Source: Luteibacter sp. UNC138MFCol5.1
GTDB taxonomy: Bacteria; Pseudomonadota; Gammaproteobacteria; Xanthomonadales; Rhodanobacteraceae
Direction: 5' to 3'
NCBI RefSeq assembly: GCF_900110505.1
Contig: NZ_FODZ01000001.1
Span: 196,488-260,487, forward strand
Length of the DNA stretch: 64,000 bases
Shown: positions 16,231-41,000 of the stretch, piece after piece
Layout of the letters: the number at the start of each line of letters is the position of its first letter
How positions within the stretch are numbered: the first letter of the stretch is position 1
The notes under the pieces: generated by a model
Seen by the model: the letters and a program-made list of their open reading frames with translations, nothing else
Database searches by the model: none
Told to the model about the DNA's origin: nothing
Made by a program: the position numbers and the translations under genes

Positions 16231-16262
16231 GTCGATGCTCCTATAAGGATGGAAAGGGCGGA

Positions 16263-16475: not shown

Positions 16476-16633
16476 GGTCGTGTCTCCGGATTCGCTGTGT
16501 CAGAGGGATGTGGCGGGCCTCGTCCCTTAGGGAGACGCCCGGCACCCACTAAGTTAGGCGTTATCGAAAATGGCGCTAGAATGCCGATCCAAACATCACT
16601 GTTTCACCAGACCTAACAATCGGGGCACGGATC

Positions 16634-17527: not shown

Positions 17528-17623
17528 GGCCTCCCGGAATCACCCCCGCGCTGCCATTGTTCCGCCCTGCCTGCCCTGCACGCTTGGGCTTCGACCATCG
17601 CGTCATACCTGCAGGGGGTTGGA

Positions 17624-18610: not shown

Positions 18611-18768
18611 CGAACTTGCGCCAGGATCGAGCCGACTACCCAGCCTTTCTTCACGCCCGATGAGCGCACGCAGGTGCAGGTTAGCGGGGCCTTCCGATTG
18701 AAAGATGGACGACTGATGAAACTACGCGAAGACCACGACGAAACGACGCGAACCACGAGACCCGGCGC

Positions 18769-19749: not shown

Positions 19750-19810
19750 CGGTAGCGTGCTCGGTGGAGAGGCCGACGGTCCGTCTCCACCGAGCCGGTC
19801 TTAGCTTCGC

Positions 19811-20461
19811 TCAGCCTGCGGAGCCGGGAGGCGTGTTCAGCAGTTGCTGCTCCCACTGGTATGCGATGCCGCTTCCGCCGAGATGGGCGATGAAGATCTC
19901 GGTGAGTTCCTGCACGTGTTCCGTACGGGCCCAGTCGCGCTGCCAGTCCCCGGCGAGCGCCATCCACGTCATGACGTTGGCGCCAGCGGCGATCATTCGC
20001 TGGATGGCCACTTCGTGCGATTCCTTCGAGATACCGCCCGAGGCGTCGGTGATGACGGAGACATCCCAACCGTCGCCCAGCGCATGAATGACGGGCATCG
20101 CGACGCACACCTCCGTCCACAGCCCGGCGATGATCAACTGTTTGCGGCCCGTGGCCTTGACCGCGTCGACGACGTTCTTGTCTTCCCACGTGTTCACCCA
20201 TGTGCGGTCGATCACTTCCTCATCGGGGAACACGTCCGTGATGCTCTTGAAGAGATAACCACCGCGGGCGGCAAGCACGCTCGTCAGGATCGTCGGCACC
20301 CTGAAGGCCTTCGCCAGCTTGGCCAACGCCGTCACGTTGTTGACGATGGCTTGCGGGTCGTGGCTACCGACACCTGCGAGCTGGTAGGCCTGGTGGTCGA
20401 TGAGCACGAGAACCGAGTCCTCCGGTCGGAGAAGCGAATCGAGTCCGTTGCGGAATGCCAT
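19811..20461 (-). CDS. isochorismatase-fold cysteine hydrolase (YcaC-like)
   Basis: This 216-residue protein has the fold of isochorismatase, nicotinamidase and YcaC. The likely triad is Asp22 in LIDHQ, Lys95 in TWEDKN and Cys119 in GLWTEVCVAMP. Most members with this ending are hydrolases of unknown substrate. AGAGGAC precedes the ATG. It diverges from a LysR gene at 20605 and is probably its target. Confidence 0.9.
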   Translation of the reverse strand: MAFRNGLDSLLRPEDSVLVLIDHQAYQLAGVGSHDPQAIVNNVTALAKLAKAFRVPTILTSVLAARGGYLFKSITDVFPDEEVIDRTWVNTWEDKNVVDAVKATGRKQLIIAGLWTEVCVAMPVIHALGDGWDVSVITDASGGISKESHEVAIQRMIAAGANVMTWMALAGDWQRDWARTEHVQELTEIFIAHLGGSGIAYQWEQQLLNTPPGSAG

Positions 20462-20573
20462 GGTAGTCCTCTGGTGTCGTTAGATGAGATGCTCTGCGAA
20501 GGTTGGCCATCGCCGTGGCGAACCCCTCGTAGACAGTGCCATCGTCATCCCAGGCGAGGTAGCACCGCAGAAC

Positions 20574-20588
20574 GCGACGTGACGTCGC
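20574..20588. promoter_or_regulatory. palindrome between hydrolase and LysR genes
   Basis: GCGACGTGACGTCGC is a perfect 7-base inverted repeat around a single central base. It lies 17 bases before the LysR start, so a protein bound here would block or tune that promoter. It lacks the usual T-N11-A form, so LysR binding is uncertain. Confidence 0.4.
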
Positions 20589-20604
20589 CTAATGGGGAAC
20601 ACCT

Positions 20605-21492
20605 ATGGAAACCGATGATCTGAGAACGTTCGTTGAGGTGACGGAAGCGGGTGGAGTGTCGGCGGCGGCGAGGCGGCTCGGCGTCACCAAGTCCGTCGTC
20701 AGCCGACAGATCGTCCGGCTCGAAACCGAGCTGGGTGTTCAACTGCTTTCACGCAGCACGCGTGGCGCGGTTGTTACCGCGGCCGGAGCGACCTTCCGCG
20801 AATACGCGGCGAGGATCTGCCGCGAAATCGACACGGCGCTGGAGAGCATCGCACCCGAAGGCGAGTTGCGAGGCCGACTTCGCATCGCGGCGCCACTGAC
20901 GTTCGGGCTCACGCATCTGGCACCCGTGCTGGCGGGCATGGCGACACGCCATCCGCGGCTGCACATCCATACGTCCTACAGCGACAGATTCGTCGATCTT
21001 CTCTCCGAAGGCTTCGACTGCGCCATCCGGTTCGGTTACATGCCCGACTCGAATCTGGTCGCGCGAAGGGTCGGACCCATCTTCGGAAAGCTCGTGGCGA
21101 GTCCGGCCTATATCCGCGCCCACGGCGCGCCGGAAACGCCCGACGACATCGTCGAGCACGAGGCGTTGATGCAGGGAACGGAAAGCTGGACCTTCATGGA
21201 CGGCGACCGCGCGATCACCGTGAGGCCGCGAGGCAAGTTCAAGAGCGACAACGGCACCGCACTCGTCGCCGCGGCGCTGGCCGGTCTCGGCATCGCCTAT
21301 CTGCCCGACGGCATCACCAATGCCCACGTGGCGTCGGGCGACCTCGTACCGATCATGACGCGATTCCCGCTACCCGTCGCCGGCGTGTTCGTCGTTCGCC
21401 CGCCCGGACCTCAGGCACCTCGCACGGTACGCGCGCTGACGGACATGCTCATCGAGTGTTTCGATGCGCATGAGGATGGCGACGCCTTGTAG
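20605..21492 (+). CDS. LysR family transcriptional regulator
   Basis: This is a 295-residue LysR regulator: helix-turn-helix at about 4-62 (GVSAAARRLGVTKSVVSRQI) and effector-binding domain to ADMLIECFDAH-like end. GGGGA lies upstream of the start. It diverges from the isochorismatase-fold hydrolase gene across 143 bases and is probably its regulator. Confidence 0.92.
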   Translation: METDDLRTFVEVTEAGGVSAAARRLGVTKSVVSRQIVRLETELGVQLLSRSTRGAVVTAAGATFREYAARICREIDTALESIAPEGELRGRLRIAAPLTFGLTHLAPVLAGMATRHPRLHIHTSYSDRFVDLLSEGFDCAIRFGYMPDSNLVARRVGPIFGKLVASPAYIRAHGAPETPDDIVEHEALMQGTESWTFMDGDRAITVRPRGKFKSDNGTALVAAALAGLGIAYLPDGITNAHVASGDLVPIMTRFPLPVAGVFVVRPPGPQAPRTVRALTDMLIECFDAHEDGDAL

Positions 21493-25008: not shown

Positions 25009-25188
25009 AACAACTCACCCTGCGGCGAAAACACCCGCGGTGCCACGAACCTCGACGTATCCAGCACCGTATCCCACGCCCGATGCAGCCCGGCCTTGCG
25101 CGCCGCGACCTGCACGCGCTTGCGGATGATGTCCGCGAAGACGCCCTGCCCGCGCATACGCGTGGCGACGTTGCTGCGCTAGTCCTTG
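25009..25188 (-). pseudogene. detached 3' fragment of the radical SAM gene
   Basis: This 180-base stretch aligns without gaps to 33637-33816, the last 60 or so codons of the intact radical SAM gene on the same strand, with about ten mismatches counted by eye. It has neither start nor the original stop codon, so it cannot make the enzyme. The two copies are direct repeats bounding an 8.6-kb segment. It may be a leftover from insertion or duplication and is probably not expressed. Confidence 0.85.
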
Positions 25189-25220
25189 ATCGACGGTATC
25201 GATAGCCAAGACCGCGTCGT

Positions 25221-26273
25221 TCAGCGTGTCTTGCCAGCCCATAAGTCCACCGGGCCGAAGCGATCGGCGCCCTGCGTCTCCAGCATCCAGCCCGGGTACT
25301 CGCGGGGAAGCTCACTTGCTTCGGAAAGCGAGGCTAGTTCCGCCTCGGTCAGCTCGATGTCGACGGCTGAGAGGTTGTCCTCGAGCTGGCTGAGCCGCTT
25401 CGCTCCAACGATCACCGAGGTCACAACGTTGCGGGAGAGCAGCCAGGCCAGGGCGATCCGCGCGATGCTGCAGCCTCGGGATCGGGCGATAGGCTCCATG
25501 GCTTCAATCACATCCCACGCCCGATCCTTGTCGACGATAGGGAAGTCGAAGGCGGATCGACGAGACCCCTCTGGATTCTGGTTCGTGCGGCTGAACTTTC
25601 CGGACAACAATCCACCGGCCAGCGGACTCCAGACCAGCAGGCCGAGCTTCTGATATTCCATCAGAGGGACGAGTTCCCGCTCGAGGTCGCGGCCCGCAAT
25701 GGAGTAATAAGCCTGCACTGTTTCGAATCGCGCATAGTCTTTCGTTGTCGCGATGCCGTTGGCCACTGCGATACGCCAGGCAGCCCAGTTCGACACCCCG
25801 ATATAGCGCACCTTGCCCTGTGTGACCATGTCATCAAGCGCACGCATGGTTTCCTCGATCGGCGTCAGGACATCGGTCGCGTGGATCTGATACAGGTCGA
25901 TGTGATCGGTCTGCAGACGCTTCAGACTGGCTTCGACAGCATCCATGAGATGACCGCGGGACGCGCCTACGTCGTTTCGACCCTGGCCCATGCGGCTGTA
26001 GCCCTTGCTTGCAAGGACGACCTCGGTGCGGGGTACGCCAAGATTCTTGAAGGCCTGACCGAGGCTTTTCTCGCTCTCGCCGGCGGAATACACGTCAGCC
26101 GTATCGAAGAAGTTGATCCCGCCGTCGATACATGCCCTTACCAGCTCATCGGCGCCGGCCTGGTCGACATTGCCGATATGCTCGTAAACACCACCCGCGC
26201 CACCGAATGTCATGGTGCCGAAGCACAGCCGCGAGACCAATAGTCCAGTGTTTCCGAGCTGTTTGTATTTCAT
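25221..26273 (-). CDS. aldo/keto reductase
   Basis: This is a 350-residue reductase of the longer Kv-beta/YajO-like group. The tetrad is Asp57 and Tyr62 (FFDTADVY), Lys90 (ASKGY) and His131 (YQIHATD). The cofactor-binding end VIVGAKRLSQLEDNL is present. The ATG at 26273 is used because AGGGTG lies upstream; a GTG three codons earlier is open. It follows the response-regulator gene by 15 bases in what looks like a four-gene leftward unit with a kinase, so a redox signal may control it. Confidence 0.93.
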   Translation of the reverse strand: MKYKQLGNTGLLVSRLCFGTMTFGGAGGVYEHIGNVDQAGADELVRACIDGGINFFDTADVYSAGESEKSLGQAFKNLGVPRTEVVLASKGYSRMGQGRNDVGASRGHLMDAVEASLKRLQTDHIDLYQIHATDVLTPIEETMRALDDMVTQGKVRYIGVSNWAAWRIAVANGIATTKDYARFETVQAYYSIAGRDLERELVPLMEYQKLGLLVWSPLAGGLLSGKFSRTNQNPEGSRRSAFDFPIVDKDRAWDVIEAMEPIARSRGCSIARIALAWLLSRNVVTSVIVGAKRLSQLEDNLSAVDIELTEAELASLSEASELPREYPGWMLETQGADRFGPVDLWAGKTR

Positions 26274-26288
26274 GATTTTCACCCTACT

Positions 26289-26966
26289 TCAGTCAGTGGT
26301 CCGCGCGCGTCCATAGCGGCTTTGGTTTTCGCGCGCTCCAAGCTTCTCGGCCATGCGGACAAGATCGGCGAGTGAGTCCGCCTTCATTTTTCGCATGGCA
26401 TTACCGCGATGAATCTTGACGGTGATCTCGCTAATGGCGAGTTGCCCCGCGATCTGCTTGTTCATCAGACCAGCGGCAACCAGGCCAAGGACGTCGCGCT
26501 CGCGCGGCGTCAGCGTGGCAAAGCGGTCGCGAAGTTCAGCATGAGCGCCTTCCTCCCTTCGCCGACGTTCGCCGATGGCAATCGCTTCTCGGACCGCCGC
26601 AAGGAGGTCCTCTTCACGAAATGGCTTAGGCAGGAACGTGATCGCACCGGCACGCATCCCACGCACCGTCATGGGGACGTCGCCATGGCCGCTCATCAGC
26701 ACAATGGGGATTGAAAGCTGGTCCTGCAGGAGCTCCTCCTGGAAATCGAGCCCATTCGCGCCCTTGAGCCTCACGTCCAGGACCAGACACGCCACTGCTC
26801 CGTAGCCACCGCGGTCTCTGAACTCTGCGGGACCACTGAATATCTCGACCGTGTGGCCGCACGAGCGCAGCAGGTTGGCGATCGACGACCGTACGTCTTC
26901 GTCATCATCGATAACGCATACCGGCAAGTCGATTTCGTCGTTCGCGGAGTTCGTCATGCTGTGCAC
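26289..26966 (-). CDS. FixJ-type response regulator
   Basis: The 225-residue protein has a receiver domain with phosphorylatable Asp64 (VLDVRL), acidic pocket IDDDED and Lys in FLPKPF, then a LuxR-type helix-turn-helix (LTPRERDVLGLVAAGL, NKQIAGQLAISEITVKIH). This is the FixJ/NodW/StyR architecture. The start shown is a GTG; an ATG three codons later is possible. It lies directly after a receiver-only gene and the kinase gene and is very likely the DNA-binding output. Confidence 0.93.
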   Translation of the reverse strand: MHSMTNSANDEIDLPVCVIDDDEDVRSSIANLLRSCGHTVEIFSGPAEFRDRGGYGAVACLVLDVRLKGANGLDFQEELLQDQLSIPIVLMSGHGDVPMTVRGMRAGAITFLPKPFREEDLLAAVREAIAIGERRRREEGAHAELRDRFATLTPRERDVLGLVAAGLMNKQIAGQLAISEITVKIHRGNAMRKMKADSLADLVRMAEKLGARENQSRYGRARTTD

Positions 26967-26975
26967 GTCTTTTCG

Positions 26976-27359
26976 CTATCGGCTCGCCGTGTCACCGGTC
27001 AACACGGTGCGTATGAGAACCAGAAGGTTTTCCGGATCGACCGGCTTACACAGGAATGCGTGAACGCCAAGCTGTGTCGCCTGCGCACGAGCTTCCGCCG
27101 TGCCGAACGCGGTCATGAGCACCACCGGGAGGTCCGGCCGCCGTGTCCGTACTTCGTGCAGGAGGCCCAAACCACTCATGCCCCGCATATGGAGGTCGCT
27201 GACGATGAAATCCGCCATGGGCAACCACTGCGACGCCAGCAGGTCTTCGGCGGCGCGGAAGGTCGCCACTGACATGCCGACGGAATCGAAGAAGGAGGCG
27301 ATGCTCTCCCGGACCTCGTCGTCGTCGTCCACAATGCACACGCGTGCCTGTGTAATCAC
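26976..27359 (-). CDS. single-domain response regulator
   Basis: This 127-residue protein is a bare receiver domain: acidic residues IVDDDDE, phosphorylatable Asp55 in VSDLHM, Thr in LMTAFG and Lys in FLCKP. There is no output domain. Stand-alone receivers act as phosphate sinks, relay intermediates or allosteric partners. The start is a GTG with GAGAGG upstream. It sits between the kinase gene (108-base gap) and the FixJ-type gene (nine-base gap). Confidence 0.93.
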   Translation of the reverse strand: MITQARVCIVDDDDEVRESIASFFDSVGMSVATFRAAEDLLASQWLPMADFIVSDLHMRGMSGLGLLHEVRTRRPDLPVVLMTAFGTAEARAQATQLGVHAFLCKPVDPENLLVLIRTVLTGDTASR

Positions 27360-27467
27360 AACCGTGTACCTCTCACGCCTTCCGCAACATGGTCTCCATC
27401 ATGGCGATTCCAGCTGTGAGGCCAATAACATCTAGATATGAGTAGCCGGGAGACCAGGAAGGACGGT

Positions 27468-29402
27468 TCAGGCTGGCAAGCTGAACGCCACGGTTGCCCC
27501 GGCGCCTTCATTGTTCTGGGCCCAGATGGTCCCGCCGCCGGCCTCGATAATGGTTCGGCAGATGGACAGTCCCATCCCCATCCCATCCGACTTCGTGGTA
27601 AAGAACGGTTCGAAGATCGTCGTTCCCTGCCCGTCCGGAAAGCCCGTCCCGCAGTCGCGCACGTGAACCGCCACGTCGCCAGCGGGAAGCACCTTCACGT
27701 AGACGCAAAGCTCTCGTGTCGATCCAGTCGAACTCACCATTGCCTGAATGCCGTTGATGATGAGGTTCACGAGCACCTGCTGAATTTGGACCCGGTCCGC
27801 CCTGACCTTCGGCACCGGGGCGACAGGACGATTCCAGACAATCTGGACCGCTTGAGCTGCCGCCTCACGCCGGGTAATTGAAAGTGCGCCGTCGATCAGG
27901 TCAAGAAGGTCCACGTCCTCGGCCTGCGGCTCGGCTTTTCGGGCCAGAGACCGGACCCGGCCGATGACTTCCGCCGCACGCGTTCCGTTTGAAACGATAC
28001 TCGCGAGGCACTTTTCCACTTCATCCAGGCGAGGCTCATCCCGATCGACCCACCGGCTAGCCGACTTCGCGTAGTTGATGATGGCGGTCAGTGGCTGGTT
28101 GACCTCATGCGCAATCGACGCGGCGAGTTGTCCAAGCATCGACACGCGCCCGGCATGTGCGAGTTCCGCCGAGGCTTGTTCAAAGCGCGCCCGAGCGTGA
28201 TTTCGCTCGGTAACGTCGAACGCCATCACCAGGACATGCGACCAGTCCCGGCTCTCTGGAAGGAGCGTTACCCTGAGGACGATGTCGGCAACCCTGCCGT
28301 GGAACGTTTTCAGGCGGGTCTCGGCTTCGACCGAGGTCTCACCGTCTGCGAGGGCAGCCAGGATGGTCGAGAACGCCCCCACACCGGACTCGAGATACCG
28401 TCCGCATAGATTCGCGCCAGCCAGCTCCTCCCGGTGTCGAACACCGAAGAGATCCGCGGCTGCCTGATTCGCATGGCGAATAACCCCGGCCTGTATTGCA
28501 GGCCCAACGATCTCAGGGTGGGACGCGAGCCAAGGGCGTAGGTCACCCGGCGGGGCTGCATGAAGCACCGCACCAACCGTTTGCGACCAGTCCGACTCCC
28601 ACATGGCAAAGCCGGCGGAGTCGAAGATCGCCCGGTACCGCCGCTCGGACGCAAGACGTTCGGTGTCCGAGCGAAGACGTGCGGTGAGGTCGGAACTCGA
28701 TTCGATGATGCCGACGGGGCGGCCTTCGGGGTCGCGACGAAGCAGCCACCGGCTTGCCAGTACCAGACGGGTACCGTCCCGGCGGTTGCGGACGACCTCG
28801 CCCGACCAGTGGCCGTCCGTTCGCAGGCATTCGTCCACGTCGGGATCATCGTATTCGCAACGCAGAAGCTCGCTGCTTTTCTTCCCCAGCGCTTCGTGTC
28901 GTGCCCAGCCGTAGAGAAGCTCGGCGCCCTCGTTCCAATAGAGGATAACGTCCTCGTTACTCCGGATGATGACCGTATCGTGCGAAAGCTCGAGAATACG
29001 CGCCTGCTCGCCGAGGGTGGTGCGCGAAGACCGGTCACGAAGCGACAGTAGCGTTGTGATTCCGATCGCCACCAGACTGACCACGAAGCGCGAATAGGCG
29101 CCGTTGGTCGGATGCGAAAGGTGCCCGGTCAGGAAGGCGGCGGTCGTCAGTACTCCGGCCGTGATGCCGCTGGCGATGACATAACGACCGCCGAGCGGCG
29201 CGACCACGAGCACTACCGCAATGTAGAGAACAGCTACCGCGCCGTCGAGCGACTGCCGCAAATCCAGCGCGAGGATACAAATCGCAAGCACGGTCGCCGC
29301 GAGCAATAGCGCAGGCCGGCGTGCAGCCGGAGAACGATTTCTGACGAGTGCAACCGTATTGTCCGCCAACATCGACCTGGCCATCAGCGAGCGTCGATGC
29401 AT
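27468..29402 (-). CDS. PAS-domain sensor histidine kinase
   Basis: This 644-residue kinase starts with four or so membrane segments in the first 120 residues (LLLAATVLAICILALDL and AVLYIAVVLVVAPLGG among them), followed by two PAS domains (about 130-250 and 255-400). The HisKA motif SIAHEVNQPLTAIINY carries the phosphorylated His, and the ATPase domain has NLIINGIQAM (N box), DCGTGFPDG and GMGMGLSICR. It resembles the FixL/TodS-like PAS kinases that pair with FixJ-type regulators. No receiver domain is attached. The exact start is unclear; Met7 and Met11 are alternatives. The signal is unknown. Confidence 0.92.
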   Translation of the reverse strand: MHRRSLMARSMLADNTVALVRNRSPAARRPALLLAATVLAICILALDLRQSLDGAVAVLYIAVVLVVAPLGGRYVIASGITAGVLTTAAFLTGHLSHPTNGAYSRFVVSLVAIGITTLLSLRDRSSRTTLGEQARILELSHDTVIIRSNEDVILYWNEGAELLYGWARHEALGKKSSELLRCEYDDPDVDECLRTDGHWSGEVVRNRRDGTRLVLASRWLLRRDPEGRPVGIIESSSDLTARLRSDTERLASERRYRAIFDSAGFAMWESDWSQTVGAVLHAAPPGDLRPWLASHPEIVGPAIQAGVIRHANQAAADLFGVRHREELAGANLCGRYLESGVGAFSTILAALADGETSVEAETRLKTFHGRVADIVLRVTLLPESRDWSHVLVMAFDVTERNHARARFEQASAELAHAGRVSMLGQLAASIAHEVNQPLTAIINYAKSASRWVDRDEPRLDEVEKCLASIVSNGTRAAEVIGRVRSLARKAEPQAEDVDLLDLIDGALSITRREAAAQAVQIVWNRPVAPVPKVRADRVQIQQVLVNLIINGIQAMVSSTGSTRELCVYVKVLPAGDVAVHVRDCGTGFPDGQGTTIFEPFFTTKSDGMGMGLSICRTIIEAGGGTIWAQNNEGAGATVAFSLPA

Positions 29403-29465
29403 TTTCGGCAGCCGGGTTTGCGGTGTCGCTCGCGAAATTGCGCCGAACTGTCGCCGGATTGCGGG

Positions 29466-30347
29466 TCAGCGGGACTTTCGCGAGCGAAACGCCTGCGGCG
29501 AGACACCGTAGGCCCGACGGAAGGCCACTGCGAAATGCCCGGGGTTCCCATACCCGCAATCCAACGCAACATCGGTGACGCTACGTGCTCGGTCGTCCAA
29601 CAGGACCCGGGCCCGCTCCATGCGGAGCCGTGTCAACCGCTGAAACGGTGTTTCGCCGAAGGTGTCCTTAAAGACCCTCAGGAAGTGGAACTTGCTCAAT
29701 CCGACTTCGGCGGCCAGTGCATCCAGGCTCAGATCAAACGAGAGGGAGGAGCGCATCAACCCATCGATTATCGCCATGCGCCCCGGATCGCGGCCAAGCG
29801 ATCCCATGGGACGAATCCGAGCGTGAAACTGAAGGAGATGGCTGGCCAGAAAATGTACGGCGGAGTCGGCGTAGAGGCTGGGCATTTTCAACTCGACCGC
29901 GCGGCGCAGACTCTGGAGTACGGATTCCACGACCGGGTCGGGAAAGGTCAGCTGGTGCGGCAGACGGATCTCCTCCGTCCACGAGGGATCGAGCTTCGCG
30001 ACGTCCGCAAGCGTCGAAGCAGGAATGTGCAGTTGCAAAGTCTCCTGGTCTCGCGCACCCCACCACCGAAGACTGACCTCCTCGCCGGGCGCAGTCATTC
30101 CGATGTCACCCTTGGCATAACGGGCGCGCTGCCACTTGCCGGCGTACAGGCCCTCGATCTCACAGCCTCCTCGTGTGACGAGCACGATGAGGTGGTCGTT
30201 AGTCGGTGCGGTGACAAGGCTCTCTACTTCGGTGGGTTCTTCGTAGCTGCGGAGCAGGAGGTCCCTCCATCCGAGCTCCCAGCTGCACAGCGACATACGT
30301 CCCTGAAGTGTCTGACTAGCGGCCACGCTCTGCGGTGAAATTGCCAT
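29466..30347 (-). CDS. AraC family transcriptional regulator
   Basis: This is a 293-residue regulator with an N-terminal cupin-like sensor domain and two C-terminal helix-turn-helix motifs (about 190-290): LDALAAEVGLSKFHFLRVFK and VTDVALDCGYGNPGHFAVAF. GGGGA precedes the ATG. It lies 63 bases from the kinase gene on the same strand and diverges from the esterase and SDR genes, which are its most likely targets. Confidence 0.92.
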   Translation of the reverse strand: MAISPQSVAASQTLQGRMSLCSWELGWRDLLLRSYEEPTEVESLVTAPTNDHLIVLVTRGGCEIEGLYAGKWQRARYAKGDIGMTAPGEEVSLRWWGARDQETLQLHIPASTLADVAKLDPSWTEEIRLPHQLTFPDPVVESVLQSLRRAVELKMPSLYADSAVHFLASHLLQFHARIRPMGSLGRDPGRMAIIDGLMRSSLSFDLSLDALAAEVGLSKFHFLRVFKDTFGETPFQRLTRLRMERARVLLDDRARSVTDVALDCGYGNPGHFAVAFRRAYGVSPQAFRSRKSR

Positions 30348-30594
30348 GTCGATGTCCCCGTGCCAACGCGCAGGGAGCGATCCCCTACCTAGATATTAGA
30401 TCCAACGGCGGATCGGCCCATCTTGTTCATTTCACGCCTGAATTCAGGTGTCTATGGACGCTTCGCGAGTGTCCCCCGGGCGTGTAACACCTAGGCATGA
30501 ATTGTCGGCAAGCGATTGCCTGAGCCTCAATGTTCTCGCCGACATTGGCACCAGCGGCCCTTGGCCCACGTGAACACTTCCCAGGAAAACCGCC

Positions 30595-31626
30595 ATGAAC
30601 CGCCTCACTAAAATCGCGTCCCTTCTCATTGGAGCAACTGTCATGACCCAGCCCGTTCTTGCCCAGGACATCGCAAACGACTCCCACCTCGACCCGCAGG
30701 TGAAGCAGTTCCTGGAAAAGATCAACAAGGACCCAAGCCCATTCTGGGAGCTTCCGCAGCCGAAGCCGCAAGACATTCTGACCGGCATCCAGGAGCAGAC
30801 CAAGGTCGACATGTCCGGCGTGACAACTTCCGAACGCACCATCACCCAGAACGGGCAGACAGTGAAGATCTACATCATGAAGCCCGATCACACCGCCCCT
30901 AAGCCGGGCGTCCTCCTCTTCATCCACGGCGGTGTCTGGATCGTAGGTAATTTTCAGAACCACCAGCGCATCCTGCGCGACCTCGTCGTCGGGTCCGGCC
31001 AGGTCGGTGTGTTCGTCGAATACACCCCGCTACCCCAGGCGAAGTTCCCGACTCAGCTCGAGCAGTCTTATGCCGTGCTGGAATGGATCGCCGCGAACGG
31101 CAAGGAACTCGGCGCCGATGGTAGCCGCATCACGGTCGCGGGCAACTCCGTCGGCGGCAACATGACTGCCGCGCTGACCCTCATGACCAAGGATCGTAAA
31201 GGCCCGAAGATCGACTACCAGGTCCTTCTCATCCCCGCTACCGACGCCAGCGTCGATACCGACTCGTATCACCAGTTTGCCACCGGTCACTTCCTCGCCC
31301 GTGACTTCATGAAGTACGGCTGGGACCTGTACGCACCGGACGCGAAAACCCGCGACAACCCGTACGTCTCGCCTCTGCGCGCTTCGAAGGAAGAGCTGAC
31401 TGGCCTGCCGCCGGCACTCGTCATCACCGCGGAGAACGACCCTCTTCGTGACGAAGGCGAAGCCTACGCCCGCAAGCTGAAGGAAGCAGGCAACACGGTC
31501 ACGGCCGTTCGCTATAACGGCACCATCCACGACTTCGTCTTCCTGAACGCGCTGCGCGAAGTCCCGTCGACGAAGGCTGCTCTTCAACAGATCAGCGACG
31601 GCATCCGAGAGCACAACGCGAAGTGA
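30595..31626 (+). CDS. exported alpha/beta-hydrolase, HSL-type esterase
   Basis: This 343-residue protein starts with a signal peptide (MNRLTKIASLLIGATVM, cut near VLAQD). The fold is that of hormone-sensitive-lipase-like esterases: HGG (111-113), nucleophile Ser185 in GNSVGGN, Asp282 in ENDPL and His312 in TIHDF. These cleave short-chain esters. It has AGGAAA before the start. It heads a rightward group with two SDR genes and is divergent from AraC, whose control is inferred from position. Confidence 0.92.
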   Translation: MNRLTKIASLLIGATVMTQPVLAQDIANDSHLDPQVKQFLEKINKDPSPFWELPQPKPQDILTGIQEQTKVDMSGVTTSERTITQNGQTVKIYIMKPDHTAPKPGVLLFIHGGVWIVGNFQNHQRILRDLVVGSGQVGVFVEYTPLPQAKFPTQLEQSYAVLEWIAANGKELGADGSRITVAGNSVGGNMTAALTLMTKDRKGPKIDYQVLLIPATDASVDTDSYHQFATGHFLARDFMKYGWDLYAPDAKTRDNPYVSPLRASKEELTGLPPALVITAENDPLRDEGEAYARKLKEAGNTVTAVRYNGTIHDFVFLNALREVPSTKAALQQISDGIREHNAK

Positions 31627-31758
31627 TGTCCAGGGCGCGCACTCCTGGGTGCGCGCCTCTCCTCTCGCGAAGACCGATGCACGGCGTCTCCGCGTCACAA
31701 GATCTTCGGTCCGATATCCGGAGATCGTCCTCTATCATCCTCCGAAGGAGCCAAGAGC

Positions 31759-32499
31759 ATGAGCAGCACCTCGAATAAGGTTGCCATCGTTACCGGTTCG
31801 TCGCGCGGCATCGGCGCGGAACTGGTTGTCCGACTCGCGCGCGACGGGTTCAAAGTCGTACTCAACTACTCCGGCAACGCCGAGGCGGCCAACAAGATTC
31901 TGGCGACGATCAAGGCAGCCGGCGGCGATGGCATCGCCGCACAGGCCGACGTCTCCGATCCGACGGCAGTCAAAGCGATGTTCGACGCCGCGGAATCCAC
32001 TTTCGGTGGCGTCGACGTGGTCATCAACTGCGCGGGCATCCTTACCCTCGCAAAGATCGAAGACTTCGATGACGCCACCTTCGACGAGGCCATGGCCGTC
32101 AACGTCAAGGGCACGTTCAACTCCTGCCGCGAAGCCGCCAGGCGGATTCGTAAGGGTGGCCGGATCATCAATTTCTCCACCAGCGTGATCGGCGTTCGCC
32201 TCCCCACCTACGGCGTTTACGCGGCGACCAAGGGCGCCGTCGAGGCCCTGACGTCGGTACTGGCCCAGGAAATGCGTGGTCGCGAAGTCAGCGTCAACGC
32301 GGTCGCGCCGGGCCCGGTGGCGACCGAACTATTCCTGCACGGCAAGAGCCCTGAACTGATCGACCATATGGCCAGGCTGAATCCCCTGGAGCGCCTCGGG
32401 CAGACGAACGACATCGCCAATGTGGTTTCGTTTCTGGCAGGTCCGGAAGGCGCCTGGATCAATGGTCAGACCATCCGCGCGAACGGCGGCATGTGCTGA
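31759..32499 (+). CDS. SDR family oxidoreductase (3-oxoacyl-ACP reductase type)
   Basis: This 246-residue classical SDR has TGSSRGIG (12-19), CAG (91-93) and Tyr154/Lys158 in YGVYAATK. Its ending, GAWINGQTIRANGGMC, is FabG-like. It matches the SDR at 15490-16230 along its whole length, with the same total size and active-site positions. It is followed by a second SDR gene as in that locus. GGAG precedes the ATG. Confidence 0.93.
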   Translation: MSSTSNKVAIVTGSSRGIGAELVVRLARDGFKVVLNYSGNAEAANKILATIKAAGGDGIAAQADVSDPTAVKAMFDAAESTFGGVDVVINCAGILTLAKIEDFDDATFDEAMAVNVKGTFNSCREAARRIRKGGRIINFSTSVIGVRLPTYGVYAATKGAVEALTSVLAQEMRGREVSVNAVAPGPVATELFLHGKSPELIDHMARLNPLERLGQTNDIANVVSFLAGPEGAWINGQTIRANGGMC

Positions 32500-32562
32500 A
32501 GACGCAACCGTGCGTGTTCAGGCCCGGCCGAGCCGTTGCCACCCCACCAGGGATCTCATCGT

Positions 32563-33465
32563 ATGAACAAGAAAATTATTCTGATTACCGGTGCGTCCAG
32601 CGGCTTCGGTCGCCTCGCCGCAGAAGCTCTGGCAAGGGCGGGACACACCGTCTACGCGTCGATGCGCGACGTAGCCGGCCGCAACGCAAGGAACGTCGCG
32701 GAATTGGCGGAAACGTCTCGCCTCGACGGTATCGATATCCGCGCGATCGAGCTCGACGTCCAGTCGGAGTCATCCATCGAATCCGCGGTGAGCAAGATCA
32801 TCGCCGACAGCGGCAAGATCGACGTGATGGTTCACAATGCCGGCCACATGGTCTTCGGTCCCGCTGAAGCGTTCACACCCGAACAATTCGCGGAGCAATA
32901 TGACGTAAACGTCTTGGGTACGCAGCGGGTTAATCGAGCGGTCCTGCCGCATATGCGCGCCGCGAAACAGGGACTCTTGCTCTGGATCTCAAGCAGCAGT
33001 TCCGCCGGCGGGACGCCACCGTATCTGGCGCCGTACTTCGCCGCCAAGGCGGCGATGGATTCCCTGGCGGTGGTTTACGCCCGTGAACTCGTGCGCTGGG
33101 GCATCGAAACAACCATCGTCGTCCCCGGCGCCTTTACGAAGGGCACGAACCACTTCGCACATTCCGGCCGGCCGGGAGACAAGGCGCGTCTTGCCGAATA
33201 CGAAGCCGGCCCGTACAAGGCTTTCGGCGAACAGGTGATGAAGGCGTTCTCGGAGATCGTCCCCGAAGACGCCGACCCCTCCGGTGTTGCAGCCGAGATG
33301 GTGCGGGTCGTCGACCTACCCTTCGGCAGCCGGCCATTCCGCGTCCATTACGATCCCACCGAAGATGGCGCGAGCATCAGCTTTCCGGTGATCGATCGGC
33401 TGCGTGCAGAGATGCTGCACCGGGTTGGTTTTCCCGATCTGCTCAAGCCGGCCAATCTAGCTTAA
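32563..33465 (+). CDS. SDR family oxidoreductase
   Basis: This 300-residue SDR has TGASSGFG (9-16), HNAGH (91-95) and Tyr158/Lys162 in YFAAK, with the ending RVGFPDLLKPANLA. It is clearly paralogous to the gene at 14581-15477 and keeps the same partner and order. The ATG at 32563 starts the Rossmann strand at the normal place; the open frame begins nine codons earlier with a TTG. It is the last gene before the radical SAM gene. Confidence 0.93.
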   Translation: MNKKIILITGASSGFGRLAAEALARAGHTVYASMRDVAGRNARNVAELAETSRLDGIDIRAIELDVQSESSIESAVSKIIADSGKIDVMVHNAGHMVFGPAEAFTPEQFAEQYDVNVLGTQRVNRAVLPHMRAAKQGLLLWISSSSSAGGTPPYLAPYFAAKAAMDSLAVVYARELVRWGIETTIVVPGAFTKGTNHFAHSGRPGDKARLAEYEAGPYKAFGEQVMKAFSEIVPEDADPSGVAAEMVRVVDLPFGSRPFRVHYDPTEDGASISFPVIDRLRAEMLHRVGFPDLLKPANLA

Positions 33466-33632
33466 GAGGTTCAATAGTCGGCGCCGTCGCGCCGCCGCTC
33501 CCGGGCTCCCCGGAACTAGGCCTGACGTAATACGCGGACCATCTTGAGAGCAGCGCTTTTCTAGCAGGCGTCATGATGGCTGCGGAAAGCCTCATGTCGT
33601 GACAGGAAGAGTGATTGGCGCTCTCCCGACGT

Positions 33633-34715
33633 TCAGAACAACTCCCCCTGCGGCGAAAACACCCGCGGCGCCACGAACCTCGACGTATCCAGCACGGTAT
33701 CCCACGCCCGATGCAGCCCGGCCTTGCGCGCTGCGACCTGCACGCGCTTGCGGATGATGTCCGCGAAGACGCCCTGGCCGCGCATGCGCGTGGCGAAGTT
33801 GCTGTCGTAGTCCTTGCCGCCGTTCATCTGCTGGATGAGGCTCATGATGTGCGTGGCGCGGTCGGGGTAGTGGAGCTCGAGCCATTCGCGGAACAGCTGC
33901 TTGAGTTCGTGTGGCAGGCGGATGCAGGTGTAGCCGATCGATCTGGCGCCGTTGGCTCCGGCTTGCTCGATGATCGCTTCGAGGTCCTTCTCGTTCAGTG
34001 CCGGGATGATGGGTGCGACGAGCACACCGACGGGCACGCCGGCTTGAGCGAGCGTCTCGACCGCTTTCATGCGACGGTGGGGCGCGCTCGCGCGCGGTTC
34101 GAGTTTCGCGGCGAGCCGGTTGTCCAGCGAGTTGATCGAGATGAACACCTGCACGAGGTTGCGCTGGGCCATCGGCACCAGGATGTCGAGGTCGCGTTCG
34201 ACCAGCGCGTTCTTGGTGACGATGGTGCACGGATGGTTGCACTCGTTGAGCAGCGCCAGCGCGGCGCGCGTGAGCCGCCAGGTCTTTTCGATCGGCTGGT
34301 ACGGGTCGGTGTTGCTGCCGATGTTGATCGGCTTGCAGACGTAGCTGCGCTTCGAGAGCTCGTCGCGAAGGATCGACTCGAGGTTCGTCTTGGCGAACAG
34401 CTTCGTTTCGAAGTCGAGGCCGGGCGAGAGGTTGAGGTACGCGTGCGACGGGCGGGCGTAGCAGTAGATGCAGCCGTGCTCGCAGCCGCGGTATGGGTTC
34501 GTCGCGTGGTCGAAGCCGACGTCGGGCGAATCGTTCCGGGTGATGACGCTCCGGGCCAGTTCCTCGCGCACCTCGGTGGCAGGTCGGCGATCATCTTCTT
34601 CGCGGTGCCAGCCGTCGTCCTCGGCCTGATGGCGCGTGGATTCGAAGCGGCCCTCCGGGTTGGAGGCGGCGCCTCGGCCCTTGTGCAGGCGGGTCATAGG
34701 AATCGGCTGGGACAT
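33633..34715 (-). CDS. radical SAM protein, PA0069/SplB-like family
   Basis: This 360-residue protein has the radical SAM cluster motif CEHGCIYCYARP, preceded by HKGRGAASNPEGRFE as in the PA0069 family, which is often annotated near SplB. The three cysteines should hold a 4Fe-4S cluster cleaving S-adenosylmethionine; the substrate is unknown. The start is uncertain: GTG 34763, ATG 34715 and ATG 34697 are all in frame and none has a good ribosome-binding site. The last 180 bases recur as a fragment at 25009-25188, so this gene marks the right edge of an inserted segment. Confidence 0.88.
   Translation of the reverse strand: MSQPIPMTRLHKGRGAASNPEGRFESTRHQAEDDGWHREEDDRRPATEVREELARSVITRNDSPDVGFDHATNPYRGCEHGCIYCYARPSHAYLNLSPGLDFETKLFAKTNLESILRDELSKRSYVCKPINIGSNTDPYQPIEKTWRLTRAALALLNECNHPCTIVTKNALVERDLDILVPMAQRNLVQVFISINSLDNRLAAKLEPRASAPHRRMKAVETLAQAGVPVGVLVAPIIPALNEKDLEAIIEQAGANGARSIGYTCIRLPHELKQLFREWLELHYPDRATHIMSLIQQMNGGKDYDSNFATRMRGQGVFADIIRKRVQVAARKAGLHRAWDTVLDTSRFVAPRVFSPQGELF
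33637..33816. repeat. 180-base direct repeat, right copy
   Basis: This is the intact 3' end of the radical SAM gene and the partner of 25009-25188. The copies have the same orientation and are 8628 bases apart, as expected for a target duplicated on insertion or for flanks of a duplicated segment. Confidence 0.85.
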
Positions 34716-34729
34716 CGTACAAATGTACG
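34716..34729. promoter_or_regulatory. palindrome at the start of the radical SAM gene
   Basis: CGTACAAATGTACG is a perfect 6-base inverted repeat with a two-base centre, adjacent to the ATG of the radical SAM gene and 134 bases before the divergent hydrolase. It could be an operator; which regulator would bind is not known. Confidence 0.35.
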
Positions 34730-34862
34730 TTACCGCCGTCTCAGATTGCGCGATATCCGTCACGGCCGCGGTGGATTCCGCAAGCCGACCGCCAAAACGG
34801 ACAAGGCAGGGATATGGACCGGATGGTCCAATCCGCTACCCCCACCCACAAGGAGACAGACG

Positions 34863-35712: not shown

Positions 35713-37377
35713 TCAGTCCTGGATCGGAATGTCCTTGGTTTCGCGAACGAAGAACAGGCCGACGATGAAGGTCATCAGCGCGACGATGACCGGGTACCAG
35801 AGGCCGTAGTAGATGTCGCCCTTCCATGCCACGAGCATGAAGCCGATCGTCGGGACGAAGCCGCCGAACCAGCCGTTGCCGATGTGGTAAGGGAGGCTCA
35901 TCGACGTGTAGCGAATGCGCGTCGGGAACATCTCCACGAGCCAGGCGGCGATCGGGCCGTAGACCATCGTCACGTAGAGCACGAGGATCGCGAGCAGCAC
36001 GACGAGCATCGGGTAGTTGGACTGCGCCGGATCGGCTTTCTCGGGATAGCCCGCCGCCTTCACCTGCGCAGCGACCTTCGCCGTGAAGTCCTTGTTCGCC
36101 GCGGTGAATGCCGCCTTGTCCAGCTTGCCGCCTTCGAACGACTCGATCACCTCGTCGCCCACCTTCACCGTCGCCAGCGCGCCGGCGGGAGCCGCGGCGT
36201 TGGTGTACGGGATGCCCTTCTTCGCCAGCACGCTCTTGGCGACGTCGCACGAGCTGGTGAAGGTCTTCTTGCCGACCGGATCGAACTGGAAGGAACACGC
36301 ATCCGGATCGGCCGTGACGACGACCGGTGCTGACGCCGCGGCGGCTTCGACCGCCGGATTGCCGAAGTGGGTGAGGCCCTTGAAGATCGGGAACATCGTC
36401 AGCGCGGCGATCAGGCAGCCCGAGAGCACCACCGTCTTGCGGCCGATGCGGTCGGACAGCCAGCCGAAGAACACGAAGAACGGCGTACCGATGAGCAGCG
36501 CGGCGGCGATCAGCAGGTTGGCGGTAGTGCCGTCGATCTTCAGGCTCTGCGTCAGGAAGTACAGCGAGTAGAACTGACCCGTGTACCAGACGACCGCCTG
36601 ACCCGCGGTGGCGCCCAGCAGCGCCAGGATCACGAGCTTGAGGTTCTTCCACTGGCCGAACGCCTCGGTCAGCGGCGCCTTCGACTGCTTGCCTTCGGCC
36701 TTCATCTGCTTGAAGACCGGCGACTCCTGCAGCTGCATGCGGATGTAGACCGACACGCCGACGAGCACGGCGGAGATGAGGAACGGAATGCGCCAGCCCC
36801 ACGCTTCGAAGCTCTCGGTGCCGAGGCCCAGGCGCGTGCCGAGGATGACGAGCAACGACAGGAACAGGCCGAAGGTGGCGGTGATCTGGATGAAGCTGGT
36901 GTAGAGACCGCGCTTGCCCTGCGGCGCATGCTCCGCGACGTAGGTCGCGGCGCCACCGTATTCACCGCCCAGCGCCAGACCCTGCAACAGTCGCAACAGG
37001 ATCAACAGTACTGGCGCCGCCACGCCCATCGTCGAATAACCGGGTAGCACGCCGACGAGGAACGTCGAGGTACCCATGATCACGATGGTGACGAGGAACG
37101 TGTACTTGCGGCCGATCAGATCGCCGACGCGCCCGAACACGATCGCGCCGAACGGTCGCACGGCGAAGCCGGCGGCGAACGCGAGGAGCGCGAAGATGAA
37201 CTGGCTGGTCTCGTTGAGGCCGGTGAAGAACTGCTTGCCGATGATCGCGGCGAGCGAGCCGTACAGATAGAAGTCGTACCACTCGAACACCGTGCCCAGG
37301 CTGGACGCGAAGATCACGCGCTTGTGGCTGGTGCCGATATTACCGTCGGCGCGGAGGCCGTCTACGGTCGTTGCCAT
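35713..37377 (-). CDS. MHS-type major facilitator transporter with periplasmic insert
   Basis: This is a 554-residue 12-segment symporter of the metabolite:H+ branch (FGRVGDLIGRKYTFLVTI loop, RLLQGLALGGEYGGAATYVA). It takes up a carboxylate or related solute. Between the later transmembrane segments is an unusual hydrophilic insert of about 115 residues with two cysteines (DACSFQ and SSCDVAK). It lies 13 bases after a porin-like gene and is divergent from acs, so uptake of acetate or a related acid is a reasonable guess. The ATG at 37377 follows GGAGAG; the frame is open above it. Confidence 0.88.
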   Translation of the reverse strand: MATTVDGLRADGNIGTSHKRVIFASSLGTVFEWYDFYLYGSLAAIIGKQFFTGLNETSQFIFALLAFAAGFAVRPFGAIVFGRVGDLIGRKYTFLVTIVIMGTSTFLVGVLPGYSTMGVAAPVLLILLRLLQGLALGGEYGGAATYVAEHAPQGKRGLYTSFIQITATFGLFLSLLVILGTRLGLGTESFEAWGWRIPFLISAVLVGVSVYIRMQLQESPVFKQMKAEGKQSKAPLTEAFGQWKNLKLVILALLGATAGQAVVWYTGQFYSLYFLTQSLKIDGTTANLLIAAALLIGTPFFVFFGWLSDRIGRKTVVLSGCLIAALTMFPIFKGLTHFGNPAVEAAAASAPVVVTADPDACSFQFDPVGKKTFTSSCDVAKSVLAKKGIPYTNAAAPAGALATVKVGDEVIESFEGGKLDKAAFTAANKDFTAKVAAQVKAAGYPEKADPAQSNYPMLVVLLAILVLYVTMVYGPIAAWLVEMFPTRIRYTSMSLPYHIGNGWFGGFVPTIGFMLVAWKGDIYYGLWYPVIVALMTFIVGLFFVRETKDIPIQD

Positions 37378-37390
37378 GAAAGCTCTCCGA

Positions 37391-38866
37391 TCAGAAACGA
37401 TAGTTGCCGTTGAGCGTGAACTCGTTGGCAGACGTCTTCTCCCTGCCCAGACCGTTGGTCGTGGAGGAGTTGAGGTTCGAGTGGATCCATTCCACGCTGA
37501 AGTCGTAGGCACCGGCGGTGTACTGCAGGCTCAGCGCCTGCTGACGGTTCTTCAGCAGGCCCGCCGTGTTCGGCGCACGCCAGCGAAGGACGTCGCGATC
37601 GTCGGGATTGCTCGCGGCGAAGGTGCCGTAGGCGCTCCAGTTCGGCGTGAACTTGTAGCCCACCTGCAGGTAGCCACCCTTGTCCTTGATGTCGCCGAAC
37701 TGCGAGAGGTCGCCGAACAGCTGGCCGATGGCGTTGCCCGTGTAGACCGCGCTCTTGAAGATGAAGTTGCCCGGCATCCACATGCCGCCGACTTCGTACG
37801 CCGTGCTCTTGATGTTGCTCTTGATCGGCGTGATGGTCGCGCCGTCCACACCGTGCAGGTCCACCTTGCTGTAGTGCGCGACGGCGAACGCCTGCCAGGT
37901 CTTGCCCTTGGCCGTGAGGCGCGCTTCCACCTGTGGCTTGAATCCGGCGTTGCCGGCCGTGAGGTAGTTGGTCGTCAGGCCCGGCCCGTTCCAGCTGCCC
38001 TCGAACGCGCCGAGGTCGAAGCGCCACTTCACGGGGCCGTCGGAACCGTGGTTGAGATCCTGCATCCAGATCACGCCGGGATAGCGCCAGCCGATGACGC
38101 CGGTGCCGTAGCCGAGCGGAAACGCGATGTGCGAGAGCGATTGCGGCAGGTATTCGAGCGGGAAGATGAGGTCCCACATCTGGCCGACGCGGAACGTCGT
38201 GCCGGTCGCGGCGTTGGTCAGGTCCATGTACGCCTGGCGGAGGCGGGGCGTGGGCTGCTGCTGGCTGTACGGCCCCGTGCCGTTGAAGCCGCCGAAGAAG
38301 TCCATCTCGATGCGGCCGCTTCCGGCCCAGGCCTCGGTGAACTTCGCGCCGGTGAAGTCGAGCCAGAAGCGCGTGTTGCGCACGTCGACGCCGCTGAGCG
38401 AATCGTTGACGCGTCCGCCCTGGCCGGGAATCGGGTATTCCGCATTGGCGCCGTTGCCGTACGTGTAACCCTTGCTCTGGGTGAAGGCGTTCGCGTTGAT
38501 GAAACCGTGCAGCGCGACGGACACGCCCGGCGCCGAGGTGAAGGTCGGCTTCGCCGGCACGGCGGCCACGGTCTTCTCGACCCGGGCGACCTTCTCGTCG
38601 GTCTGCTGCACCTGCGTCTGCGCGGCCTGCGCGGTCTCGGTGGCCTGCGTGGTGGCGGCCTTCTGCTCCTGGATCATCGCCTTCAGCTCGGCGAGCTGCT
38701 GCTCGAGCTGGTTGACCCGGGATTCGAGCTCGGCCTCGCGGCTCGAGGATTTCTTCGACTTCGATTGCGCGTGGGCAAGGTCCGGCAACGCCGCCATCGG
38801 CAGCATCAGGGCACAGGCGACACTCAGGGCGATGGCCTTGCGGCCACCGGAACGGATCGTCTTCAT
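37391..38866 (-). CDS. outer-membrane channel protein with coiled-coil N-terminus
   Basis: This 491-residue protein has a signal peptide ending LAHAQS, a coiled-coil stretch (EAELESRVNQLEQQLAELKA, about 45-75) and a beta-barrel part rich in aromatics, ending LNGNYRF with a terminal Phe that fits BamA recognition. Such proteins are often annotated as porins. It is co-transcribed with the MHS transporter, so it probably supplies the outer-membrane passage for the same solute. GGGGAG precedes the tandem ATG at 38866-38869. Ligand unknown. Confidence 0.85.
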   Translation of the reverse strand: MKTIRSGGRKAIALSVACALMLPMAALPDLAHAQSKSKKSSSREAELESRVNQLEQQLAELKAMIQEQKAATTQATETAQAAQTQVQQTDEKVARVEKTVAAVPAKPTFTSAPGVSVALHGFINANAFTQSKGYTYGNGANAEYPIPGQGGRVNDSLSGVDVRNTRFWLDFTGAKFTEAWAGSGRIEMDFFGGFNGTGPYSQQQPTPRLRQAYMDLTNAATGTTFRVGQMWDLIFPLEYLPQSLSHIAFPLGYGTGVIGWRYPGVIWMQDLNHGSDGPVKWRFDLGAFEGSWNGPGLTTNYLTAGNAGFKPQVEARLTAKGKTWQAFAVAHYSKVDLHGVDGATITPIKSNIKSTAYEVGGMWMPGNFIFKSAVYTGNAIGQLFGDLSQFGDIKDKGGYLQVGYKFTPNWSAYGTFAASNPDDRDVLRWRAPNTAGLLKNRQQALSLQYTAGAYDFSVEWIHSNLNSSTTNGLGREKTSANEFTLNGNYRF

Positions 38867-38928
38867 CATGGTCTCCCCAACCATTGGCAAGCCGAGCATG
38901 TGACAGGGGCGTTGGGGCTGCCATTCGC

Positions 38929-38965
38929 CAAAGGTCTAACCTCGACCAAAGTCGTACCACCGGCA
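38929..38965. promoter_or_regulatory. candidate control site of the acs/porin promoter pair
   Basis: The sequence around CGACCAAAGTCG (38943-38954) is a four-base inverted repeat in the 190-base gap between the divergent porin and acs genes. Because a CrbR-like regulator is encoded next to acs, this is where its site is expected. The match to a known motif was not checked. Confidence 0.3.
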
Positions 38966-39056
38966 CAGCCTTATGTTGCGTCGCGACGCTAAACTCCAGC
39001 CGTAGCCAGACGCATTCTTTCGGCCACGCCGAAACACACGCACCGCAGGAGCCAGC

Positions 39057-40997
39057 ATGTCCGATCTACACCCGGTCGATCCCGCCTTCGCCGCCAGGGC
39101 GCGCATTGGCAAGGACGACTACCAGAAGATGTACGCCCGCTCGATCAAGGACCCGGAGGGGTTCTGGAAGGAGATGAGCGAACGGGTGGACTGGATCGAG
39201 CCGCCGACGCGCATCAAGGACGTCTCGTTCGACCCGGAAAACCTGCACATCCGCTGGTACGAGGACGGCAAGCTCAACGTGGCCGCCAACTGCCTCGACC
39301 GTCACCTGGAGAAGCGGGGCGACAAGACCGCGATCATCTTCGAGGGCGACGATCCGGGCGAATCGCGCACGCTGACCTACCGCCAGCTGCACACCGAGGT
39401 CTGCAAGTTCGCCAACACGCTGAAGAACCTCGGCGTGACGAAGGGCGACCGCGTGGTGATCTACCTGCCCATGATCCCCGAGGCCGCCGTCGCGATGCTC
39501 GCCTGCGCGCGCATCGGCGCCATCCATTCCGTCGTGTTCGGCGGGTTCTCGCCGGATTCGCTCGCGAGCCGCATCGGCGACTCGAAAGCCAAGCTCATCG
39601 TCACCGCCGACGAGGGCTGCCGTGGCGGCAAGAAGATCCCGCTCAAGGCCAATGTCGACGAGTCGCTCTCGCGCCCCGGCACGAACAGCGTGGAGACGGT
39701 GATCGTCGTGCGCCGCACCGGCGGCGCCATCCACTTCCAGTCGCCGCGCGACCGCTGGTACCACACGCTGATGGAGGGGCAGTCGGAGGTGTGCGCCGCC
39801 GAGCCGATGAACGCGGAGGATCCGCTGTTCACGCTCTACACCTCGGGCTCCACCGGCCAGCCGAAGGGCGTGCTGCATACCAGCGGCGGTTACCTCGTCT
39901 ATACAGGCCTGACGCACGAACTGACCTTCGACCTGCGCGAGGACGACATCTACTGGTGCACGGCCGATGTGGGCTGGATCACCGGCCACAGCTACGTCGT
40001 GTACGGCCCGCTGGCGAACGGCGCGACGGTCGTCATGTTCGACGGCGTGCCGAACTATCCGGATTTCAGCCGCTTCTGGCAGGTGGTCGACAAGCACAAG
40101 GTCACGCTGTTCTACACGGCGCCCACGGCCATCCGCGCGCTGATGCGCGAGGGCGACGCGCCGGTGAAGAAGACCTCGCGCCAGTCCCTCCGTGTGCTGG
40201 GCACGGTCGGCGAGCCCATCAATCCGGAGGCCTGGAACTGGTACTACCGGGTCGTGGGCGAGGAGCGCTGCCCGATCGTCGACACGTGGTGGCAGACGGA
40301 AACCGGCGGCTTCCTCATCACGCCGTTGCCCGGCGCCACGGACCTCAAGCCCGGTTCCGCGACGCTGCCGTTCTTCGGCATCGTGCCCGCGATCGTGGAC
40401 GCCAACGGCAAGGCGCAGGAAGGCGCGGCGAGCGGCAACCTCGTCATCACCGATTCGTGGCCGGGCCAGATGCGCACGGTCTACGGCGATCACCAGCGTT
40501 TCATCGACACGTACTTCAAGACCTACCCGGGCAATTACTTCACGGGTGACGGCGCGCGCCGCGACGAGGATGGCTACTACTGGATCACCGGCCGCGTCGA
40601 CGACGTCATCAACGTGTCGGGCCACCGCATCGGCACGGCCGAGGTGGAGAGCGCGCTGGTCGCGCATCCGAAGGTCGCCGAGGCGGCGGTGGTCGGCTGC
40701 GCGCACGACATCAAGGGCCAGGGTATCTACGCGTTCGTGACGCTGAACGCGGGGGAGACCGGCAGCGACGAGCTGCGCAAGGAACTCGTCGCCGGCGTGC
40801 GCAAGGAGATCGGCCCGATCGCGGCGCCGGATCACCTGCAATGGGCGCCGGGCCTGCCGAAGACGCGTTCGGGAAAGATCATGCGCCGCATCCTGCGCAA
40901 GATCGCGGAGAACCAGCCGGACCAGCTCGGCGACGTGTCGACGCTGGCGGATCCGGGTGTGGTGAAGAACCTCGTGGAAGAGCGGTTGATCAAATAA
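39057..40997 (+). CDS. acs: acetyl-CoA synthetase
   Basis: This 646-residue enzyme makes acetyl-CoA from acetate, ATP and CoA. The ATP loop [11 protein letters not shown], the signature [30 protein letters not shown] and the C-terminal catalytic Lys607 in [11 protein letters not shown] are all present; that lysine is the acetylation switch in the family. The length matches E. coli Acs (652). Three bases after the stop a response-regulator gene begins, and the porin-transporter pair is divergent. Regulation by CrbS/CrbR is inferred from synteny with Vibrio and Pseudomonas. Confidence 0.97.
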
Positions 40998-41000
40998 GCC

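Follow-up and report, generated by a model that had tools for sequence, protein, structure and literature searches.

A displaced 3' end of a radical SAM gene in Luteibacter as the probable relic of a GInt-like island

How does the 3' end of a gene come to lie several kilobases away from the gene it belongs to, with no recombinase next to it? We investigated this question for a stretch of 64,000 nucleotides (the window) from the genome of Luteibacter sp. UNC138MFCol5.1 (G000). A first-pass annotation had reported an ungapped direct repeat of 180 bases and about 94% identity, which is confirmed by the alignment of positions 25009-25188 with 33637-33816: 170 of 180 bases are identical (94.4%), both copies have the same orientation and their starts are 8628 bases apart. 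The E-value of the second copy in BLAST (3.9e-76) is far past chance. The repeat represents codons 317-376, i.e., the last 60 codons, of an intact PA0069-family radical SAM gene at 33633-34763 (minus strand; NF033668 with 487.8 bits at a cut-off of 360), and on one side the homology stops at this gene's stop codon. The displaced 3' end (25009-25188, also minus strand) is referred to as the remnant in the following. The intact gene, which is the target of the islands described below, encodes a CxxxCxxC motif at residues 94-101, as read from its translation. It is codons 97-98 within this motif (34470-34475, minus strand) at which the gene is split in relatives, i.e., at the codon of a catalytic cysteine. 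The NCBIfam model of intein-containing Rv2578c radical SAM proteins aligns with the gene product only from about residue 101 onwards, following a long stretch without a match, which suggests that the intein of that family may be located at this same motif. On the 5' side, a transporter gene (35713-37512, minus strand; cluster c2) forms a conserved flank that adjoins the radical SAM gene in most compared genomes.

The segment between remnant and intact gene (25189-33632) encodes eight proteins, whose assignment by Pfam agrees with the earlier gene list. On the minus strand these are an aldo/keto reductase (25221-26282; PF00248, E 2.7e-77), a response regulator with GerE (LuxR-type) domain (26289-26966; PF00072 and PF00196), a single-domain response regulator (26976-27359; PF00072), a PAS histidine kinase (27468-29402; PF02518, PF00512, PF00989) and an AraC-family regulator (29466-30347; PF12833), followed on the plus strand by an alpha/beta hydrolase, i.e., the esterase (30595-31626; PF07859), and two short-chain dehydrogenases (31759-32499, PF13561; 32536-33465, PF00106). 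None of the eight has a match to a recombinase family in Pfam, which supports the earlier remark that no integrase or transposase is visible in the segment. The short-chain dehydrogenase pair is present twice in the window (14581-16545 and 31759-33465) in opposite orientation, and both pairs consist of the same two protein clusters.

To place the locus, we compared it within the genus. The radical SAM gene has a full or near-full match in all 23 Luteibacter genomes, and its 5' side is syntenic in most of them, while its 3' side differs in nearly all, with a few pairs sharing parts. Further 3' pieces of at least 90 bp are found at the same locus in 8/23 genomes (G000, G001, G003, G004, G008, G012, G013, G014); a 71-base piece in G005 and a piece on another contig in G021 are not included in this count. 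Four of these genomes (G003, G008, G012, G013) have a piece of about 837 bp, which in each case begins at codon 98, i.e., inside the CxxxCxxC motif. The recurrence of the pieces and the shared break at codon 98 support the earlier suggestion that the detached end marks an insertion. They do not support the gene's 3' end as the target, since the break is located mid-gene, at codons 97/98, in these less eroded relatives. The 180 bp would be what erosion has left of a longer displaced 3' half.

This also bears on the alternative, raised in the first-pass annotation, of a plain segmental duplication within the genome without any mobile element. Two copies in direct orientation within one genome are what such a duplication would leave. 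In contrast, the same gene end is displaced in 8/23 genomes with different DNA in between, and the break at codon 98 is common to the longer pieces. Furthermore, the two 3' halves of G008 are 98.1% identical over 837 bp, yet the homology stops within a few bases of the stop codon. We thus regard a duplication as very improbable.

A candidate for the responsible element is provided by G012, the genome closest to G000 by rpoB (95.4%; tree support 85/83). Over 26.9 kb, its order is: severed 3' half, complete radical SAM gene, gin-like module and severed 5' half, with the gene split at codons 97/98. The island resembles GInts, for which the sections of the 2017 report used here (PMC5385486) describe a terminal set of three recombinase-type genes and a small fourth gene, cargo that varies, a highly specific target and circular intermediates; likewise, the G012 module encodes three recombinase-type proteins and a small fourth. 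The severed halves are 88.5% and 83.0% identical to the G000 gene, the complete copy 77.2%. The sequence adjoining the break resembles one end of this island in all four genomes with the 837-bp copy. For those remnants that lack gin genes, 34 (G013), 30 (G008) and 22 (G003) of 36 bases match the G012 island end, which is reached by 0 of 5000 shuffles. An island of the G012 kind is the likely machine behind the Luteibacter 3' pieces. The gin module itself is present in 1/23 Luteibacter genomes, namely G012, and the other genomes with 3' pieces contain neither gin genes nor a severed 5' half.

Our first candidate for the integrase was a large serine recombinase (L024 9002-10540) that adjoins the carried copy of G012. 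It has a match in 15/23 Luteibacter genomes, and in none of the other 14 does the match lie at the radical SAM locus (12 with long matches at 42-48% identity; G009 and G022 weak). Given this and the position of the gin module at the island's end, we now treat it as cargo. PADLOC found nothing for five G012 proteins. A further 5' piece of a radical SAM gene inside the island is decayed (residues 22-90, 51%; L121 1345-1482, stitched G012 region 41369-41575) and perhaps derives from an earlier copy or insertion.

The association of gin modules with this gene extends beyond the genus. GinB matches are found in 12/398 genomes of the order, all of which were searched for the radical SAM gene; long stretches were taken for 8 of the 11 genomes outside Luteibacter. 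The gene is split in 8/12 (G012, G031, G050, G286, G288, G393, G396, G398), while it is unsplit despite the GinB match in G390, G290 and G247 (the latter with one stop) and without a match in G089. In all eight the split is located at codons 97/98, with the 5' homology of G288 ending 1-2 bases earlier. TGAACA is found at the end of the 3' half in 8/8 splits and GGTATG at the end of the 5' half in 6/8. A 36-base island end like that of G012 is observed in 6/7 others (17 to 31 of 36 bases; reached by 0 to 27 of 5000 shuffles), while the respective end of G288 shows no resemblance (9 of 36). Island sizes range from 22.9 to 60.7 kb (n=7).

Seven of the eight split genomes, all except G288, possess one complete, stop-free copy of the radical SAM gene. 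It is located between the severed halves in six; in G031, the assembly breaks within the gin module, such that the copy and the adjoining 3' half are on one contig and ginA and the 5' half on a second. A severed target together with a complete homologue inside the island, as known from the recA element RME discussed below, is thus found in 7/8 cases. In G288, the gene is split (L190, L244) and a search of the genome returned no complete copy, such that the gene seems dispensable there.

All eight split genomes feature adjacent genes of four matching kinds (three recombinase-type plus a small fourth), in G031 distributed over the two contigs. GinA passes the Pfam Phage_integrase model in the three genomes tested (G012, G393, G286) and is the only Gin protein to do so; for GinB (G012, G393), no family is matched. 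GinC shows the invariant residues R422, H569, R572, H596 and Y606. The direction of ginD equals that of ginC in G012, G031, G050, G286 and G288 (5/8) and is opposed in G393, G396 and G398. As the assignment rests on gene order, size, GinA family and GinC residues, 'GInt-like' is the safe name for these islands. With regard to wider samples, the GinA profile matches in 211 of 369 genomes of the class, which we take as general Xer-type recombinases and leave out of the case. The GinC profile yields one partial match (G048) in the same sample, which holds few genomes of this order, and matches in 5/233 genomes of the family. Among plasmids, 11 records match GinB, all below 60% identity. A gin-like module is also present in G390 (L188 10528-16398) although the radical SAM gene is unsplit there.

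What are the complete copies within the islands? We placed them together with severed and unsplit genes in a tree of 55 protein rows. Severed halves follow their hosts, i.e., that of G012 groups with G000 (99/94), that of G286 with a Rhodanobacter (91/83) and that of G031 with Frateuria (95/87), which is not the case for several carried copies. Those of G286 and G031 form a pair on a long branch (100/100), and those of G393, G396 and G398 group together (100/99), apart from the severed halves of their own hosts and near the copy of G050 and an unsplit Luteimonas gene (98/88). The carried copy of G012 groups with L. anthropi inside Luteibacter (97/88). Mapping the carried label onto the tree needs three changes, and one origin is thus unsupported. 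The position within the island varies as well: the copy lies beside ginD in G393, G396 and G398, beside the 3' half and reversed in G031 and G286, and internally in G050 and G012. The unsplit gene of Luteimonas sp. RC10 (L052 10001-11134), which groups with carried copies as stated, has no gin match within its locus and may be a carried copy left behind.

With regard to a possible function of the carried copies, CxxxCxxC is kept in 7/7 and both copies checked of the seven (G393, G031) pass the NF033668 cut-off. Within 12 bases on either side of the split, they show 3 to 6 differences to the severed site; since overall DNA identity is just 61-78%, these differences do not demonstrate a purposeful alteration. 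GTT at codon 99 is observed in 5/7 carried copies compared to 2/80 named loci, one of which (L043) is the carried copy of G012. As there is dependence among the seven copies, and AGC or AGT is found at this codon in the hosts G393, G396 and G398, the sequences are only suggestive of an altered recombination site.

We then return to the window. The cargo at 25191-33504 aligns with G012 positions 12354-20641 at 88.8% identity and likewise adjoins a displaced 3' piece there. This divergence is like that of the window's flank at 35713-41650 (87.2% to G012), such that the cargo is probably older than the split of G000 and G012. This agrees with the first-pass view that the event is not recent. The empty counterpart of this older event is given by G018: its single uninterrupted gene lies 173 bp from the left-hand sequence that in G012 adjoins the displaced 3' piece at 65 bp (75.2% between G018 and G012 over 1917 bp). 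A relative with one uninterrupted gene, the check proposed in the first-pass annotation, is thus found for the orthologous older site. In the same way, the intact gene of G000 is the unoccupied counterpart of G012's younger event, given that its flanks match those of the split G012 gene (left 87.5% over 2122 bp, other side 87.2%).

The remnant itself is less simple. In G000 it is less decayed than its G012 counterpart and has changes in common with G000's own gene, from which we infer that it was converted or renewed. Despite the shared cargo, G000 and G012 have different sequences to the left of the remnant, and the G000 left flank is found elsewhere in other genomes, e.g., in G022 about 250 kb from the radical SAM gene. 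Both the differing flanks and the changes shared with the own gene would also be expected if the segment arrived by ordinary homologous recombination with DNA of a relative, using displaced 3' end and intact gene as arms, with an island only in the donor's past. The similar divergence of cargo and flank (88.8% vs. 87.2%) is in contrast what vertical descent predicts. We consider such an arrival improbable as the sole account, and it is a variant of our main reading and compatible with it.

According to this main reading, the window's segment is probably the relic of a GInt-like island that was inserted in the radical SAM gene at codons 97/98. The relic would comprise the displaced 3' end and the old cargo, with the recombination genes lost. 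In the relatives, the complete arrangement is observed: a ginABCD-like module adjoins the severed 5' half, cargo is present, the severed 3' half closes the opposite side, the island end sequences are similar, and 7/8 cases include a complete divergent copy of the radical SAM gene. As there is no island end in the window, the step from island to relic is deduced from these relatives. We propose that a circular form of the island is recombined with the site at codons 97/98 by the Gin proteins. The insertion would cut the native radical SAM gene, whose role would pass to the carried copy. In a later phase, the carried copy could exchange sequence with the native halves by recombination and gene conversion; the gin side would be lost and the carried copy would come to resemble the native gene, such that the displaced 3' end, the cargo and one intact gene stay behind. 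The window would be at this last stage: its remnant would have shrunk by erosion to 180 bp, and gene conversion, or else homologous recombination with a relative, would have renewed it. If such insertions occurred repeatedly, this would account for the variable 3' side of the gene within the genus.

Several observations count against a relic. The remnant ends at codon 317, so that codon 98 is not visible in the window. The window shows no island end within 3 mismatches and no severed 5' half of the gene, and the whole G000 genome has no match to GinB of the G012 island and none to the GinC profile, such that the window is not itself a GInt. Beyond G000, the module occurs in the single Luteibacter genome named above, and G288 has a split gene without a complete copy. 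The remnant being less decayed than that of G012 makes a renewal necessary. Finally, change-point tests did not confirm a switch at codon 98: for G008, the switch is placed 63 columns upstream of codon 98 (compared with three genomes) or 537 downstream (compared with G003), and no clear point results for G000 compared with the native gene of G012.

The missing module and 5' half in all 3'-piece genomes except G012 would fit smaller circles that consist only of cargo and a replacement 3' half and enter at codon 98 with the help of trans-acting recombinases, like tRNA-targeting islands that restore the gene end. In line with this, displaced and intact 3' parts are mutually closest in G000 (94.4%), G003 (91.3%), G008 (98.1%) and G013 (91.9%). 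This closeness is equally expected from gene conversion, though, and both halves are severed in all eight splits with a gin module. Nor do such circles predict that the 5' part of the intact G008 gene is unlike its sister lineages (best 79.4%). We therefore deem them unlikely, if somewhat less so than an arrival by homologous recombination. The radical SAM genes of G006 (L123) and G008 both begin with a part that differs from the sister genomes far more than the rest does; between G006 and G019, identity is 71% and then 88%, as if the gene had been partly replaced.

With regard to known systems, the islands share the gene module and variable cargo with GInts. While the gene is split in its middle here, the GInts described insert at the end or start of a gene or between genes (ABC transporter, ssb, nrdA), and the consulted sections describe no carried replacement copy (PMC5385486). 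The criteria given there are a co-directional four-gene operon, flanking imperfect direct repeats of 10-17 bases and circle excision that needs all four genes; here, ginD is on the opposite strand in G393, G396 and G398. According to their description, SEs are alike in four recombination genes, fixed targets and a 6-bp footprint, and they are set apart from GInts by sequence. The RME of Vibrio cholerae, an island within recA that excises as a circle, also sits inside a conserved gene and carries a complete divergent copy of it; it differs in its target, in having one phage integrase and a XerS-like gene, and in its 9-bp inverted repeats, and the excerpts at hand describe no gin module (PMC4405046). 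Tn552-II of Staphylococcus aureus, with Tn554-like tnpABC, shares multiple recombinases, a fixed site and a target-gene-like gene, for which rescue is proposed by its authors in the portion of the article used; it is a small transposon (9 kb) with other target and genes (PMC12486829). An island carrying its target gene is, going by these partly covered sources, already in print (recA, Tn552-II). A narrow literature search over listings and the beginnings of abstracts returned neither a radical SAM target of such islands nor GInt-like islands carrying their target gene in several genera.

We tentatively suggest that the islands might act as natural insert-and-rescue elements. That is, a valued host gene would be destroyed at an unchangeable codon and the only complete copy supplied by the island, with its site altered such that it can neither be targeted anew nor give rise to self-deletion. 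With the host now dependent on it, the island would not easily be lost; an exit route would be seen in the window and its congeners, i.e., gene conversion to the native sequence, which re-opens the site for the next island. Cleave-and-rescue gene drives would thereby have a bacterial parallel that can be tested. An unexplained repeat becomes a readable scar, part of a likely stage series from island to relic within one genus, which also suggests how a gene neighbourhood can be hypervariable without a nearby recombinase. For gene trees there is a trap, as a single-copy 'native' gene may mix host and island copies.
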